DNA of 64,000 nucleotides from Rhodovulum robiginosum (lineage in GTDB: Bacteria > Pseudomonadota > Alphaproteobacteria > Rhodobacterales > Rhodobacteraceae): positions 62,001 through 126,000 of the forward strand of contig NZ_RWGU01000044.1 of assembly GCF_003944755.1 (NCBI RefSeq), given 5' to 3'. The notes under the pieces are model-generated. The model was not told where the DNA came from, did not search any database, and worked only from the letters and a program-made list of their open reading frames with translations. Shown piece by piece: positions 57,579-64,000 of the stretch. Position 1 is the first letter of the stretch, and each line of letters begins with the position of its first letter. A program made the position numbers and the translations under genes.

Positions 57579-58576
57579 CTACCCTTCGCGCGGCTGCGGG
57601 CGCGAGGGGATTTCCTTGAGAAGGCCACCCACCCCCATCGCCGCGACCGCGTCGTCGCCGACCGTCAGCCCGCAGGCCACCCGCTCCAGCACCCAGTCGG
57701 CGCCGTTCAGCGCGGGGCTGCGCGCGCAGCCCGGCAGGCCGATCACCGGCCGCCCCGCAAGATCGCCCAGGAACAACAGGTTGCCGGGGTCCACCGGCAT
57801 GCCAAAGCGCATCACCCGCCCGCCCGCGGCGCGCAGCGCCTCGGGGCCGGTGTCATGCGCGTCGGAGGTGGCCGAGCCGGTCAGGATCAGCGCCATGTCG
57901 CCGGGCAGCGCCGCCAGCGCCGCGGCCATGGGGCCGACCGCGTGGGGCACCGTCTCGACCGCGCCGAGCGCGATGCCGAGCGCATCGAGCCGGGCCGCCA
58001 CCGCCGCCCGGCCCTTCTCGGCCAGGCCGGGCTTTTGCCCCGGCACCTCCGACAGGATCAGCCCCGCCGTTTTCAGCCGCACCCTGTGCACCCTCAGCGC
58101 CCCCGGCGCCGCGTCGCAGGCCGTGGCCAGCGCGGCGCCGGGCACCGCGTAGGGGATGATCTTGACCGTCCCGGCCAACAGCCCCGGCGTGACCCGCGTC
58201 AGCGGCGCGAGGGTGGCCAGCGTAATGCCCGGATCGACCCGGTTCAGCGCATGAATGGCAGCGGTATCGAGCCCGATCACGCCCGCCGCGTCGGCGTGCA
58301 GGTTGACCCGCCCCCGCGCCGCCGGCCCGACCCGCAGCCCGGCGGCCGCCGGGTCCGGCACCAGAGCGCGGGCCAGCTGCGCGGCCGCGGCATCCTCGGC
58401 CAGGTCGCCGGGGTCGAGACGGGCCACCGTCACCTCGGACACCCCGGCCGCGCGCAAGGCGGCAAGCTCGTCCTCGCCCAGCACCAGGCCCTTTTTCAGC
58501 ACGCGCCCCTCCAGCCGCTGGGAATGCGCCAGAACCGCCCCCGCGGCCTCGTCCAACGGTACCGGACCGAACCGCA

Positions 58577-58577
<1 letters not shown>
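57579..58577 (-). CDS. Molybdopterin-binding protein (MoeA-like domain)
   Basis: A 332-residue protein with an N-terminal domain reminiscent of MoeA (FGPVPLDEAAGAVLAHSQRL) and a MoCF/MogA-type molybdopterin-binding domain (about 165-310, ALILTGSATSDAHDTGPEAL and GRPVIGLPGCARSP). Such proteins occur with XdhC/CoxI genes in clusters that mature molybdenum hydroxylases. The start overlaps the xdhC stop (ATGA). It probably presents or binds the cofactor before insertion; this is inference. Confidence 0.82.
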
Positions 58578-59563
<986 letters not shown>

Positions 59564-59617
59564 GTGTCGTCCTCCCTGCCCCGATCATGGCGCGCCCCGC
59601 GGTTCGGGACCAGACGC

Positions 59618-59651
59618 AAAAAAACGCCGCGGGCGCCCGGCCCGCGGCGTT
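59618..59651 (-). terminator. Intrinsic terminator of the YeeE/YedE operon
   Basis: AACGCCGCGGGC / GCCCGCGGCGTT (12 bp, 59623-59651) followed by TTTTTTT on the minus strand. A second stem CCGCGGGCC / GGCCCGCGG lies at 59660-59680, between the gene and this terminator. Confidence 0.92.
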
Positions 59652-59697
59652 ACAGGGTCCCGCGGGCCGATGGCCCGCGGCGCGGCACGAGGCCGGT

Positions 59698-60294
59698 TTA
59701 CTCGGCCGGCGTCTCGGCGCCGCCAAGCGGCGCGCGGCGGCCCTTGATTCGCTTGGGCAGGATGAACGCGATCACGATGAAGGCCGCGCCGACGGCGATG
59801 CCCGCCAGATCGCCCTGCAGCGTCGGAATCGCCGCCGGGTAGTCCGCGCCGGGCACGGCCCCCAGCGTCCATTTCTCGCCCTCCAGCATCCCGAGGTCGG
59901 CCCAGAACGGATAGCTCAGCATATAGGCTGCCGCGCCCAGAAGGCCCCCGGCCACGAAGAACAGCGCGTCGATCCGGCCCGAGGCCAGCGCGCAGACGCC
60001 GGTGCCCGGGCAATAGCCCGCCAGCGCCCAGCCCAGGCCCAGCATGATACCGCCGATGAAGACGCCGACATAGGCGGTCTTGACCGACATGTGGGCGACC
60101 TCGACGAGGCCCAGCATCTGCCCGCCGAAAAGCAGCACGGAGGCCACGCCGATGGCCAGCAGGATGGTCTTCATCAGGTGCAGGTTGGTCAGGTTCAGCA
60201 TCCGGCCGATCCAGTTGGGGTTGGTCGCCCCGATCCGGTCGAGAACCGTGCCGAAGGCGGCGCCGATGACGATGGCAAGTGCGATCTGCAACAT
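59698..60294 (-). CDS. YeeE/YedE-family sulfur transporter half (PmpB-like)
   Basis: A 198-residue membrane protein with four to five hydrophobic segments and the motif LGWALAGYCPGTGVCALASG, whose cysteine-glycine pattern is characteristic of the YeeE/YedE (TsuA-related) family that carries thiosulfate or sulfur equivalents. A basic C-terminal tail ends the chain. It pairs with the next half-protein, three bases upstream on the message. The operon ends at a strong terminator. Confidence 0.88.
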   Translation of the reverse strand: MLQIALAIVIGAAFGTVLDRIGATNPNWIGRMLNLTNLHLMKTILLAIGVASVLLFGGQMLGLVEVAHMSVKTAYVGVFIGGIMLGLGWALAGYCPGTGVCALASGRIDALFFVAGGLLGAAAYMLSYPFWADLGMLEGEKWTLGAVPGADYPAAIPTLQGDLAGIAVGAAFIVIAFILPKRIKGRRAPLGGAETPAE

Positions 60295-60297
60295 GGC

Positions 60298-60849
60298 TCA
60301 GGCCTCCCTGTTGAAGAGGTAGATCGCGGCCGGAAACGCCGCCATGAAGGCGCCGAGCGCGAAGATGTAGCCCGAGACCGAGGTCTGCATCATCCCCGAC
60401 ATCATGTGCCCCGAGGTGCAGCCGCCCGCCAGCCGCGCGCCGTAAAGCACGATGAAACCGCCGACGAAGGCCGCGATCCAGCGTTTCAGCACGTTGCCGC
60501 CGAAATTCGCGCGCCAGAGCGCGGGCACCATGTATTCGCCCTTCGGCACGCCGCCGCGCAGCACCGAGGACAGCCCCGCCCCCAGCATCATCGCGCCGAC
60601 GAAGACGAAGGAATAGTTCAGCGGGTTGGCGACGGATGCCGCGTATTTCCCGTCGGACTTGGCGAGATAGGCATTGGTCGAGGTATACCCATCCTCGGTC
60701 TGGGTGACGACATCGGGTGACTGGATATCCCAGCCGATCCCGTCGAGGATGACGAATTGCGTCGAGACGCCGATCGGTTTGACCAGCAGCACGGCGATGA
60801 AAAAGACGAGCCCTAGAAGCAGCCCGCCCCATTTCCAGTTGAGCACCAT
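60298..60849 (-). CDS. YeeE/YedE-family sulfur transporter half (PmpA-like)
   Basis: A 183-residue membrane protein with the family motif GARLAGGCTSGHMMSGMMQT and about four hydrophobic segments. Together with the following half it makes the equivalent of one full-length YeeE. The ATG at 60849 follows GGGAGG; the upstream in-frame extension is promoter sequence. Just upstream are an ATTC-N8-GAAT palindrome and a perfect FNR box, so control by persulfide and oxygen is suggested. Confidence 0.88.
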   Translation of the reverse strand: MVLNWKWGGLLLGLVFFIAVLLVKPIGVSTQFVILDGIGWDIQSPDVVTQTEDGYTSTNAYLAKSDGKYAASVANPLNYSFVFVGAMMLGAGLSSVLRGGVPKGEYMVPALWRANFGGNVLKRWIAAFVGGFIVLYGARLAGGCTSGHMMSGMMQTSVSGYIFALGAFMAAFPAAIYLFNREA

Positions 60850-60895
60850 GGGGACCTCCCACCCTTCTTTTAGCGGTAGCCAAGTGACGCGAATT

Positions 60896-60911
60896 ATTCG
60901 CGTAATCGAAT
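60896..60911 (-). promoter_or_regulatory. SqrR/BigR-like operator upstream of the YeeE operon
   Basis: ATTCGCGTAATCGAAT fits ATTC-N8-GAAT, which I recall as the consensus of the persulfide-sensing repressor SqrR in Rhodobacter. A second, overlapping palindrome GCGAATTATTCGC spans 60889-60901. The site overlaps the start point predicted from the FNR box, as expected for a repressor. Confidence 0.5.
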
Positions 60912-60941
60912 TTGATCTCGGCAAGAGGTTGACCACGGGCC

Positions 60942-60955
60942 TTGATCTGGATCAA
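60942..60955 (-). promoter_or_regulatory. Perfect FNR box of the YeeE operon
   Basis: TTGATCCAGATCAA on the minus strand matches TTGAT-N4-ATCAA exactly and lies about 93 bases before the PmpA-like start. A class II arrangement would put the transcript start near 60908. It is 18 bases beyond the terminator of the candidate small RNA. Confidence 0.7.
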
Positions 60956-60972
60956 CGGGGCATTTTGCCACG

Positions 60973-61005
60973 AAAAAACGCCGTGGGAGGGAGGCCCACG
61001 GCGTT
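60973..61005 (-). terminator. Intrinsic terminator of the candidate small RNA
   Basis: AACGCCGTGGG-CCTCCCT-CCCACGGCGTT followed by TTTTTTCG on the minus strand. It would also terminate read-through from the MoxR-CoxE operon. Confidence 0.9.
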
Positions 61006-61157
61006 CTGTTTGCGACGCTTCGGGAGGGAGGCCCTCGGCGTCAACTGCGGCGGACAGGGAGGGAGGGCCCTGAACACCAACCCCCCATGTTGGGAAACGA
61101 CAGGGGGCCGCCTGCACGGCGGGAATGCGTCGGGAAAAACGCACCGTGCAAACTATG
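60973..61157 (-). ncRNA. Candidate FNR-controlled small RNA with three CCTCCC-loop hairpins
   Basis: No protein-like frame fills this stretch. On the minus strand three stems expose C-rich loops: CAGGG-loop-CCCTG at 61072-61055, a GACGC-based stem at 61042-61014, and a final 11-bp stem AACGCCGTGGG / CCCACGGCGTT at 61005-60977 followed by TTTTTT. Each contains CCTCCCTCCC or close to it, complementary to ribosome-binding sites. A perfect FNR box and a TACATT -10-like hexamer (61170-61165) precede the predicted start near 61157. This gives an RNA of about 185 nt. It resembles alphaproteobacterial 'cuckoo' RNAs, whose loops carry CCUCCUCCC, but the spacing differs. No expression data are available. 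Confidence 0.55.
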
Positions 61158-61190
61158 TTTTTCAAATGTAGCTTTGCCGGCCGGGCGACT

Positions 61191-61204
61191 TTGATTTAGA
61201 TCAA
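61191..61204 (-). promoter_or_regulatory. Perfect FNR box of the candidate small RNA
   Basis: TTGATCTAAATCAA on the minus strand is an exact TTGAT-N4-ATCAA site. It overlaps the coxE stop codon, so it serves something downstream of coxE. The distance to the TACATT hexamer (20 bases) fits a class II FNR promoter. Confidence 0.7.
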
Positions 61205-62472
61205 ACCGGTTCATCCTGCCGCAGCAGGGCGCGCATCCGGTCGCGCTCTCCGGCGTCGCCGGCGCTGGAAATCGCCGCGGCCAGATCCTCCAGCGCGGCG
61301 ATCGAATGGCCCGCGCGAAAACAGTCGACATGGGGCAGCATCGCCTTGATTCCCTGGGCTTTCGGCGCGAATCCATCCCAACGCAGCAACGGGTTTATCC
61401 AGATCAGCCGGCGCGCGGAGAGGTGCAGGCGCTCGATCTCGCGCGACAGAATGTCCACCGCGCCGCGATCGAGCCCGTCGGTGATCAGGAGCACCACCGC
61501 ACCGCTGCCCAGCACCCGGCGCGACCAGTCGCGGTTGAAGGCGTGCAGCGCATCGCCGATTCGGGTGCCGCCCTCCCAGTCCTGCGCCTCCGATCCCGCG
61601 GCGGCCAGCGCGGCGTCGACGTCGCGGGTGGCCAGTTGCCGGGTGATGTTGGTCAGCCGCGTGCCGAAGGTGAAGGCGTGCACCTTGGCCCAGCCCGCGC
61701 CCTTTTCATTGGCCACCGCGTGCAGGAAATGCAGCACCATGCGCGAGTATTGCGACATCGAGCCGGAGATGTCGCAAAGCACCACCAGGTTGGGCCAGCG
61801 GGTGCGCCGGTCACGATAGGCAAGCGCGCCGATCTCGCCGCCACGGCGCTGCGCCGCGCGCATCGTGCCGCGCCAATCGGGCAGCCGCCCGAGGGTCGCG
61901 GGCCGGGTGCGGCGCGAGACCAGGGGTTTCACGGGCAAACGCAGACGGGCCAGCATCCGCTTGGCCTCGGCGATCTCGGCCAGGCTCATCTGTTCGAAAT
62001 CCAGGGTCTTGAGCCGTTCGCGCCCCGAGGCGGTCTGGCTCGCGTCGATCTCGATCTCCTCGCCCGCGGGCTCGCCGGGGTCGATCTCGGGCATCTCGCG
62101 CTCGGCCCCGTCGAGCAGCGCCTCGGCCGCGCGCCGCTCGGCCGCCCTGGCCTTGCGCTCTTCGGCCACGCCCCTGAGCGAGGGCAGCATCAGCCCCATC
62201 ATGTGCTCGAGAAACCGCGGGTCGCGCCAGTAGAGCCGGAAGACCTGGTCGAAGACCTGGCGGTGTTCGGGCCGCGACAGGAAACAGGCCGCCAGCGTGT
62301 GGTAGAAATCGCCGCGTTCGGAGAACCCCGCCGCCTCGACCGCGCGCACCGCGTCGATCACCCGGCCCGGCCCCACCGGCAGGCCCGCGGCGCGCAGCGC
62401 GCGGGCGAAATGGGTGATGTTGTGGCTCAGCTTTCCGTGGTCGGGGATGTCGAGCGGGGGCAGCTCTGTCAT
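61201..62472 (-). CDS. coxE: CoxE-type von Willebrand factor A protein
   Basis: A 423-residue protein with a C-terminal VWA domain (MIDAS motif LCDISGSMSQYSRMVLHF near residue 225, TDGLDRG later) and an N-terminal helical region with GLPVGPGRVIDAVRAVEAAG. In the CO dehydrogenase system CoxE works with the AAA ATPase CoxD to build the copper-molybdenum centre. Other VWA-MoxR pairs serve different enzymes, so the target here is uncertain. The ATG at 62472 was chosen on homology. Separated by about 80 bases from the MoxR gene upstream. Confidence 0.88.
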   Translation of the reverse strand: MTELPPLDIPDHGKLSHNITHFARALRAAGLPVGPGRVIDAVRAVEAAGFSERGDFYHTLAACFLSRPEHRQVFDQVFRLYWRDPRFLEHMMGLMLPSLRGVAEERKARAAERRAAEALLDGAEREMPEIDPGEPAGEEIEIDASQTASGRERLKTLDFEQMSLAEIAEAKRMLARLRLPVKPLVSRRTRPATLGRLPDWRGTMRAAQRRGGEIGALAYRDRRTRWPNLVVLCDISGSMSQYSRMVLHFLHAVANEKGAGWAKVHAFTFGTRLTNITRQLATRDVDAALAAAGSEAQDWEGGTRIGDALHAFNRDWSRRVLGSGAVVLLITDGLDRGAVDILSREIERLHLSARRLIWINPLLRWDGFAPKAQGIKAMLPHVDCFRAGHSIAALEDLAAAISSAGDAGERDRMRALLRQDEPV

Positions 62473-62532
62473 GGCGGACCTCGGGGTCGGGCGGAGAGGC
62501 CGGGGGGTTTTCCACCCCCCGGACCCCCCGGA

Positions 62533-62555
62533 GGATATTTTAGGCCAGAAGAAGC
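62533..62555 (-). repeat. Gene-end repeat, copy 5 (directly after the MoxR stop)
   Basis: On the minus strand GCTTCTTCTGGCCTAAAATA then TCC begins immediately after the stop codon of the MoxR gene. It is followed by C- and G-runs (TCCGGGGGGTCCGGGGGG). Confidence 0.75.
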
Positions 62556-63479
62556 TCAGGCCGGGGCGAGCTCGGCGCGGATCTCGTCGAGCAGGCGCTT
62601 GGCCTCGGAGCCCTCGATCTTCTGGATATCGTCCTGGTATTTCAAAAGCGCGCCGATCGTGTCGGCGATCACCTGCGGCGAGAGGTCGATCACGTCGAGC
62701 GCCAGCAGGCATTTGGCCCAGTCGATGGTTTCGGCGACGCCGGGTTTCTTGAACAGATCCTCGGTGCGGAGTTTCTGCACGAAGGCGACGATCTCGCGGG
62801 AAAGGGTTTCGGCGGCCTCCGGCGCGCGGGCGTGGAGGATTTCGATCTCGCGCTCGAAATCGGGATAGTCGACCCAGTGGTAGAGGCAGCGGCGCTTGAG
62901 CGCGTCATGCACCTCGCGGGTGCGGTTCGAGGTGAGGATGACGATGGGCGGATGCGCGGCCTGGACCGTGCCCAGTTCGGGGATCGTGACCTGGTAATCG
63001 GACAGCGCCTCGAGCAGGAAGGCCTCGAAGGGTTCGTCGGTGCGGTCGATCTCGTCGATCAGGAGCACCGGCGGCCCCTCGACATGGGGGCGCAGCGCCT
63101 GCAGCAGCGGGCGTTCGATCAGGTAGTGCTGCGAGAAGAGCTCGTCCTTGAGCGCCTCGCGGTCGGCGCCGGCGCCGTCGAAACCCATCGCCTCGGCGGT
63201 GCGGATGGCGATCATCTGCTCGGCGAAATTCCATTCGTAGACGGCTGAGGAGGCATCGAGCCCCTCGTAGCATTGCAGGCGGATCAGCCGGCGGCCGAGC
63301 GCGGCGGCGATCGCCTTGGCGATCTCGGTCTTGCCGGTGCCGGCCTCACCCTCGAGAAACAGCGGCCGGCCGAGGCGCAGCGCGAGGAAGGCCACGGTGG
63401 CCAGCGCCCGCCCGCAGACGTAGTTCTGCCCGTCCAGCAGCGTTTGCACCTGGTCGATCGACGCGATTTCTTCGGCCAT
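62556..63479 (-). CDS. MoxR-family AAA+ ATPase (CoxD-like)
   Basis: A 307-residue AAA+ protein. Walker A LEGEAGTGKTEIAKAIA, Walker B VLLIDEIDRTDEPFEAFLLE, sensor I TSNRTREVHDALKRRC and a C-terminal lid are clear. MoxR ATPases act with VWA partners as chaperones for cofactor insertion. The downstream coxE gene is its partner. As in other cox clusters it is expected to remodel a molybdenum hydroxylase, but no such enzyme gene is in the window. Confidence 0.92.
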   Translation of the reverse strand: MAEEIASIDQVQTLLDGQNYVCGRALATVAFLALRLGRPLFLEGEAGTGKTEIAKAIAAALGRRLIRLQCYEGLDASSAVYEWNFAEQMIAIRTAEAMGFDGAGADREALKDELFSQHYLIERPLLQALRPHVEGPPVLLIDEIDRTDEPFEAFLLEALSDYQVTIPELGTVQAAHPPIVILTSNRTREVHDALKRRCLYHWVDYPDFEREIEILHARAPEAAETLSREIVAFVQKLRTEDLFKKPGVAETIDWAKCLLALDVIDLSPQVIADTIGALLKYQDDIQKIEGSEAKRLLDEIRAELAPA

Positions 63480-63545
63480 GTCCGTCCTCCCCTTGCGTCA
63501 GACTGCACGCGGTGCGGCGGCGGTCAAGGGCGCAGCCGCGCGGCC

Positions 63546-64000
63546 TCAGCCGGGCCGCGGCAGGGCTTGGGCGAAAAGCCGCCCCGGCGCGACGCCCCCG
63601 GGCCCCGCGCCCGAGAGTCGCGCCATGTGCCAGGCCAACGCCTGGTTGCTGGCGATCACCGGCAGACCCAACTGCGCCTCGAGATCGTCGATGATGTCGA
63701 GCGTGCGCAGGTTGGTGCAGGAGAGGAACACCGCCTCGACCCCCGGCGCGCGCCCGGCGGCGAGCGCCGCGTCGCGGATCGAGGCCGGGTCGATGCGCGC
63801 GACCCGCGCCTCGACCCGCTCTCCGAAAGAGACGGTGACCGGCACCGCGATACCCGACGTCTCGAAGGCTGCGCGCAGCGGGCCGGCCACCGCGTCGATA
63901 TAGGGGGAGACCAGCGCGACCGAGCGCGCGCCAACGGCGCCGAACGCGGCGCGCGCCGCGCTCAGCGGCTCGGTCACCGCGCGGGTGGCGGCCGCCTGCC
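63546..64000 (-). CDS. Asp/Glu racemase-superfamily protein, C-terminal part
   Basis: The frame is open through the right edge, so only the last 150 or so residues are visible. Segments ALVSPYIDAVAGPLRAAFE, VEAVFLSCTNLRTLDIIDDL with a catalytic-type cysteine, and LGLPVIASNQALAWHMARL match the maleate isomerase/arylmalonate decarboxylase/EutA-like branch of the Asp/Glu racemase superfamily. A GTG at 63977 is an internal possibility, but upstream codons continue the family pattern (ATRAVTEPLSAARAAFGA). Substrate unknown. Confidence 0.82.
   Translation of the reverse strand, partial: QAAATRAVTEPLSAARAAFGAVGARSVALVSPYIDAVAGPLRAAFETSGIAVPVTVSFGERVEARVARIDPASIRDAALAAGRAPGVEAVFLSCTNLRTLDIIDDLEAQLGLPVIASNQALAWHMARLSGAGPGGVAPGRLFAQALPRPG

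Follow-up and report, generated by a model that had tools for sequence, protein, structure and literature searches.

A probable FNR-led small RNA gene with predicted anti-Shine-Dalgarno loops in Rhodovulum and related Rhodobacteraceae

What does a perfect FNR box control when it lies across the stop codon of a CO dehydrogenase accessory gene? The question is raised by a 64-kb stretch of Rhodovulum robiginosum DNA (64,000 nt, hereafter the window), for which a preliminary description had proposed an oxygen-controlled small RNA (sRNA). It appears, from the comparisons set out below, that the box very probably leads a real regulator, one without a name in the sources searched.

Anatomy of the locus

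By direct reading, the predicted sRNA locus occupies 61204-60973 on the minus strand and comprises an FNR box, a TACATT hexamer, a row of hairpins and a U-tailed terminator. The FNR/FnrL box, TTGATCTAAATCAA (61204-61191), is a perfect match and, as first described, overlaps the stop codon (TGA, 61203-61201) of the preceding gene. This gene (61201-62472, minus strand), a neighbour lying outside the RNA, we take to be coxE, a CO dehydrogenase accessory gene, following the preliminary description and our own recognition of it. The -10-like TACATT (61170-61165, minus strand) does stand at class II spacing, beginning 27 nt past the box centre. The 5' end of the predicted sRNA, placed from this -10 element, falls at 61157, and the RNA runs for about 185 nt to 60973, where a hairpin and a T run end it at the distance originally given.

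Five hairpin regions follow one another on the minus strand. The first (61149-61114) exposes UUUUUCCC and has a covarying counterpart in relatives. A second hairpin with a UUUCCC loop (61107-61082) is seen both in the fold and in the alignment of relatives. Next come an extra CCCUCCCUCCC hairpin (61078-61049), missing in the 14 aligned Rhodovulum relatives, and a genus-conserved CCUCCCUCCC hairpin (61042-61014), helix 4 of the consensus fold. The terminator hairpin (61005-60973) carries a CCUCCCUCCC loop, invariant in all 14 aligned relatives, and a U run. The original proposal had centred on three hairpins with CCTCCC-type loops. All three CCTCCCTCCC loops of R. robiginosum are present (61066-61057, 61031-61022 and 60994-60985, minus strand), but the triplicate is specific to this species and two more hairpin regions lie 5' of the three. 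The triple CCTCCCTCCC is best read as a local detail, not as the defining feature.

The observed arrangement of elements is not due to chance. Two copies of TTGATNNNNATCAA are seen in the window where 0.04 would be expected, and the FNR-box count lies above that of all 100 shuffles, none of which reaches two. CCTCCCTCCC occurs three times, always at the sRNA locus, where 0.19 would be expected; none of the 100 shuffles reaches three. The fold of 61157-60966 has an energy of -89.4 kcal/mol (z = -5.0, 200 shuffles). Simple scans found no sigma-70 promoter at the locus and did not list the sRNA terminator, the former perhaps because promoters of the class II FNR type dispense with a -35 element, the latter perhaps because the strong stem extends into the T run. 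The promoter and terminator calls made here come from direct reading and conservation instead.

A second perfect FNR box (60955-60942, minus strand) lies between the sRNA terminator and yeeE1, and probably serves yeeE1, not the sRNA. The same upstream region of yeeE1 also holds an ATTC-N8-GAAT palindrome (60911-60896, minus strand), presumably a SqrR/BigR-type operator. Other Rhodovulum loci show comparable ATTC/GAAT sequences before yeeE.

Conservation and covariation

A DNA search of 61 genomes (the R. robiginosum genome and 60 relatives) matched all 15 other Rhodovulum genomes; short matches of 21-37 nt in three genomes of other genera are unlike the sRNA. The 12 records matched by a pattern scan belong to ten named Rhodovulum species, one Rhodobacteraceae MAG and Actibacterium sp. 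MT2.3-13A. At all 16 Rhodovulum loci an FNR box (TTGAT-N5-TCAA) stands upstream of the RNA and its terminator, and the offset of the hexamer, T[AG]CAT[TC], is fixed at exactly 27 nt past the box centre. Two CTCCCTCCC loops with UUCCC loops 5' of them are found in 14 of the 15 Rhodovulum relatives; one Rhodovulum copy (L023) is more divergent.

Fourteen RNAs (L009-L022) were aligned over 165 columns, the window RNA and L023 being left out for their insertions. Five helices make up the consensus fold, namely a long stem at the 5' end that contains an inner stem, the UUUCCC-loop hairpin, the CCUCCCUCCC hairpin and the terminator. Pairing holds in 88.7% of the alignment cells overall and in merely 75.4% for helix 4, the CCUCCCUCCC hairpin. 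Compensatory stem changes, the lack of which the preliminary description had named as one way to refute it, are evident: 18 of the 47 pairs are changed on both sides (4-10 in slid controls), and 51 cells are doubly changed against 18.4 +/- 4.1 in shuffles, none of 500 reaching 51. One of five covariation measures in these 14 RNAs, the number of further pair types, is not above shuffles (89/500), and the terminator pairs say little on covariation because 11 of the 13 never vary. None of the 14 aligned RNAs departs from the loop cores TTCCC, TCCC, CTCCCTCCC and CCTCCCTCCC. Over 16 RNAs, [UC]UCCC motifs are predicted to be unpaired with a mean of 0.76, against 0.26 for other Cs. A protein-coding reading was rejected: no ORF is common to the genus, and 11 of 16 RNAs lack a closed ORF of at least 10 codons. 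The RNAs of L020 and L022 have a TTG-start reading frame in common.

The covariance search of related genomes that had been proposed was run with two models, each leaving out the promoter. Model R1, built from the 14 aligned Rhodovulum RNAs with the window excluded, scores 61.8 bits on the window (E 7e-16) and 51.6 bits on L023. Among 394 family genomes (E <= 0.1) it matches 40, of which 38 are not Rhodovulum; an FNR box stands upstream of a C-rich-loop RNA in 17 of these 38, the other 21 showing no such arrangement. Model R2, made from six non-Rhodovulum FNR-led RNAs, gives 28 matches in 26 of the same 394 genomes (E <= 0.01). An FNR box lies within 150 nt upstream in 18 of the 28 (12 of 22 without the six training genomes) and within 150 nt downstream in three, all before yeeE. 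For the ten best R2 matches, six of which are training sequences, the box begins 48-49 nt before the model start. FNR-led C-rich-loop RNAs thereby extend to 23 genera besides Rhodovulum and are found in 25 of the 394 genomes; within the limited sensitivity of R1 and R2, the other 369 family genomes have no FNR-led match.

Not every match is a relative. Those that lacked an FNR box or a row of C-rich loops, among them L095, L096, L097, L098, L116, L161, L163, L165, L166, L168 and L171, were discounted as plain terminators or chance matches, and L084, L101 and L169 as cuckoo-type arrays. A class-wide draw of 289 genomes, which included a few family members, gave five weak R1 matches besides the R. 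robiginosum genome itself; these were set aside, since none shows C-rich loops in a row or is preceded by an FNR box within 250 nt.

The predicted promoter of most non-Rhodovulum copies is likewise of class II FNR geometry. A TANNNY hexamer lies 29 nt past the box centre at 15 of 23 non-Rhodovulum loci and at 28 or 30 nt in two more; it is missing near this offset in six of the 23 (eight lack it at exactly 29). In an alignment fitted to the model, a second group of ten RNAs (group 2, L144-L153) shows double changes in 15 of 32 pairs, 94.1% pairing and 30 double-change cells against 10.4 +/- 2.5 in shuffles. An FNR-led copy straight after coxE (L089, genome G364) was identified by eye. Taken together, the anatomy and its conservation make it very probable, in our judgement, that the locus is a genuine sRNA gene, conserved and led by a predicted FNR promoter.

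Two side observations concern these loci. At an Actibacterium locus (L036, about 7277-6697, minus strand), coxE and xdhC are separated by two tandem C-rich-loop RNAs; three CTCCCTCCC motifs and four TTCCC motifs stand in the first of them, and the whole looks like array expansion and duplication. In addition, all ten group-2 loci have TGTCGC 25 nt upstream of the FNR box (24 nt in L144), a sequence that to us recalls a RegA/PrrA half-site. Its reverse complement, GCGACA, occurs at -17/-18 in 11 of 16 Rhodovulum loci, in or beside the 3' end of coxE.

Mode of action and candidate targets

The RNA is best explained as the product of a stand-alone gene for a trans-acting sRNA. When oxygen drops, FnrL would bind the box at about -40 and activate the TACATT promoter in class II fashion. 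The transcript would fold into a row of hairpins, all with C-rich loops (UUCCC or CCUCCCUCCC), the last of which would end it. By pairing with GGGAG or GGGAGGG Shine-Dalgarno (SD) sequences, the loops would keep ribosomes off a set of mRNAs, and translation would be shifted away from aerobic functions. We hold the anti-SD action itself to be quite probable. The reading as a whole, an FnrL-activated trans-acting sRNA that blocks GGGAGG-type ribosome sites in the manner of cuckoo RNAs, from another promoter and locus and in another loop register, seems to us nearly as probable.

Could the RNA instead be distantly descended from the alphaproteobacterial cuckoo/ar14/CcsR lineage, its gene having come under FNR control and its loop motif having drifted? 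We regard this as less likely than not. The Rfam evidence cuts both ways. No family reaches its gathering score in 12 loci; below threshold, the window matches ar14 with 29.3 bits (E 0.014) and ar7 with 26.2 bits (E 0.036), widely missing the gathering scores of 58.8 and 60. Such sub-threshold ar14/ar7 matches recur in the loci of 5 of 14 relatives, at 26.3-32.3 bits among those listed. A long GGTCCTCCCTCCC array in genome G357 (L043, from about 1500) also favours a common lineage. It follows a gene that we take to be DUF1127-like, as at a CIN1-type locus, and is in the CCUCCCUCCC register, so this register is not exclusive to FNR-led RNAs. Conversely, CCTCCTCCC arrays sit at other loci in 14 of the 16 Rhodovulum genomes (by exact pattern, the R. 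robiginosum genome and G009 are without them). No FNR box lies within 600 nt upstream of such arrays at any of 16 loci read. A DUF1127-like protein is seen beside two of the arrays (L175, L180).

The published RNAs allow a closer comparison. According to the available text of PMC10746234, NfeR1 (ar14) silences ntrB through redundant anti-SD motifs in its loops, LsrB activating and NtrC repressing it. Cuckoo RNAs, in the available text of PMC3927594, have several hairpins with fixed anti-SD loops, variable stems and a variable number of hairpins, and this modular logic is common to the RNA described here, which speaks for kinship. As far as those texts go, several hairpins, C-rich anti-SD loops and varying stems, the features of ar14/NfeR1 (RF02344), cuckoo and SmelA075/SmelA099, are all found here. 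The differences lie in the loops and in the setting. Loops of ar14 and cuckoo RNAs are identical and read CCUCCUCCC, whereas here two or three are identical, reading CCUCCCUCCC, and the others are UUCCC; CCUCCUCCC is absent from the RNA, so that the unlikeness to the cuckoo/CcsR motif noted at the outset is real. NfeR1 is described as being under LsrB/NtrC control at another locus; here an FNR box stands beside coxE and yeeE/xdhC. The CcsR1-4/CIN1 RNAs of R. sphaeroides are alike in being C-rich anti-SD hairpins of Rhodobacteraceae. However, the available text of PMC10253847 has CcsRs cut from the ccaF1 (DUF1127) transcript of an RpoHI/RpoHII promoter, whereas the gene predicted here stands alone and follows an FNR box at fixed spacing; its flanking genes, coxE and yeeE1, speak against co-transcription with a DUF1127 gene. 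By analogy, the RNA would work like a cuckoo RNA; on the features tested it does not appear to belong among them.

What would an FnrL-activated anti-SD RNA act upon? Its CUCCC loops are the complement of GGGAG. The R. robiginosum genome has 60 sites with GGGAGGG 3-10 nt before ATG, against 4 for the reversed pattern, a ratio that marks the complement of the loops as a genuine SD type of this organism. Thirty GGGAGGG-ATG sites were given loci, four of which open short frames alone (3-62 codons). The genes led by GGGAGGG presumably include, by eye, ctaB, coxG, the formate dehydrogenase alpha subunit gene, that of a sulfide:quinone reductase-like protein and rpsK.

Among candidate targets, coxG is the one best conserved; it was picked since its R. 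robiginosum copy stood on the GGGAGGG list. The search located it in 14 of the 16 Rhodovulum genomes, and pairing of CCUCCCUCCC with its starts ranges from -12.3 to -19.6 kcal/mol, 14/14 being at -12 or better; for control starts, which were crudely called, the median is -9.0 and 16 of 67 are at -12 or better. The cuckoo motif CCUCCUCCC pairs with the same starts at -12.0 to -16.5, more weakly than CCUCCCUCCC in 13 of 14. Three of the coxG copies are merely 58-61% identical. Given the common descent of these copies and the crudeness of the control, coxG is to be taken as a lead. CO dehydrogenase of the coxE/coxG type serves aerobic growth, so the silencing of coxG at low oxygen by an RNA adjacent to coxE would make physiological sense.

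Two other candidates were rejected as conserved targets. The adjacent yeeE1 pairs best in R. robiginosum (-17.8) and weakly elsewhere, ten relatives ranging from -9.5 to -13.2. The other, ctaB (C2:53823-54761 of the R. robiginosum genome, G000), presumably encodes heme O synthase and, being GGGAGGG-led, was a tempting aerobic target; at E <= 1e-60 it was found in this genome and in no other of the 16 from Rhodovulum.

Targets for the full loop, GGGAGGGAGG-N0-14-ATG, number zero in the R. robiginosum genome. The 16 Rhodovulum genomes hold 25 such sites, seven of them antisense of the sRNA itself; two of the other strings are common to two close genomes and none is spread more widely. The dearth of a conserved target with full-loop pairing, together with the conservation of the loops alone, would suit loops whose partner is not a ribosome site but a protein or a second RNA, the sRNA acting for instance as a sponge. 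This is improbable in view of the enrichment of GGGAGGG directly before ATG and of the precedent, within the texts available, of anti-SD sRNAs of the same architecture.

Oxygen control, gene neighbours and biological meaning

The box TTGATCTAAATCAA fits published FnrL sites of R. capsulatus and R. sphaeroides, which include TTGATTCAGGTCAA (PMC4634722, available text). The main text of that paper, as available, contains neither 'sRNA' nor 'small RNA', and no such RNA was seen in the available portions of the two FnrL regulon papers (PMC4263372, PMC4634722); a search of open-licence PMC articles found no literature on this RNA. In R. sphaeroides, ChIP-seq gave 13 FnrL sites that do not lie upstream of annotated genes; known sRNAs account for no more than two of the 13, and the available text suggests that unidentified elements lie at such sites (PMC4263372). 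The same text describes FnrS of E. coli as a directly FNR-regulated sRNA that represses its targets without oxygen. Predicted FNR control is the point of likeness here, and the multi-hairpin anti-SD design is the difference; no FnrS match appears in Rfam up to E 10 at 58000-64000 of the window.

PcrZ, a 136-nt sRNA of R. sphaeroides, deserves mention as a known RNA of which this one might be the counterpart. According to the available text of PMC8139620 and PMC6238624, it is induced at low oxygen in a PrrA- and FnrL-dependent manner from its own promoter, and it is likewise an sRNA of a Rhodobacteraceae phototroph. However, its promoter has a PrrA site and its control by FnrL may be indirect, and the sRNA sites reported from FnrL ChIP-seq are RSs0019 and RSs2461, not PcrZ (PMC4263372, available text). 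That the RNA is the counterpart of PcrZ, and hence already known, is in our view quite improbable.

The genes around the RNA vary. Downstream of it in Rhodovulum lies mostly yeeE1; at L012, coxE was not found upstream, and other loci have xdhC directly downstream or none of six query genes. According to a neighbour-protein search of 22 non-Rhodovulum loci, 11 adjoin coxE and/or xdhC, three yeeE only and eight none of these in the stretch examined. In genome G015 (L020), CoxE of L022 aligns in three pieces and two frames (40-71% identity) and YeeE1 homology is in two pieces and two frames, while in L021 the L022 proteins align in one piece at 89-90% identity. A search for coxG in G015 did not find it. 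From FNR box to terminator, G015 is nonetheless 92.5% identical to L022 without gaps, and 89.6% to L021 and L018; L021 and L022 are 91.0% identical over this stretch. The coxE stretch of G015 is 80.5% identical to that of L022, with five of six gaps not multiples of three, compared with 86.1% between L021 and L022. These data suggest that CO oxidation was lost in G015 and the sRNA kept, seemingly for its own sake. Since the RNA is intact where its neighbours are broken, targets beyond the CO-oxidation genes would be expected. It is thus very improbable that the RNA is a cis element without a trans role, a coxE 3' UTR or terminator region or a yeeE leader, as its same-strand position beside coxE/yeeE and the mostly constant yeeE1 downstream in Rhodovulum might suggest, when it has promoter-like elements of its own in fixed geometry, closes with a terminator, outlasts its broken neighbours in G015 and occurs at loci without coxE, xdhC or yeeE.

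Rhodovulum and its relatives alternate between aerobic and anaerobic life, and FnrL is a master oxygen regulator in the Rhodobacter species studied. One may speculate that the FnrL-led array is a family-wide anaerobic translational switch that reads GGGAGGG SDs, cuckoo-type RNAs reading GGGAGGAGG; we put this forward as a tentative idea, and not a probable one. The calculated loop-SD energies fit such a split of registers: CCUCCCUCCC pairs at -21.4 with GGGAGGGAGG and at -14.3 with GGGAGGAGG, whereas CCUCCUCCC pairs at -14.3 and -18.1, respectively; at coxG both loops are predicted to pair well. If the switch exists, the spelling of a gene's SD would decide which environmental signal silences it. 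An FnrL-led anti-SD sRNA, predicted in 24 genera, would add a post-transcriptional arm to oxygen control, an analogue of FnrS, and would allow a test of whether SD spelling encodes the repressing signal.
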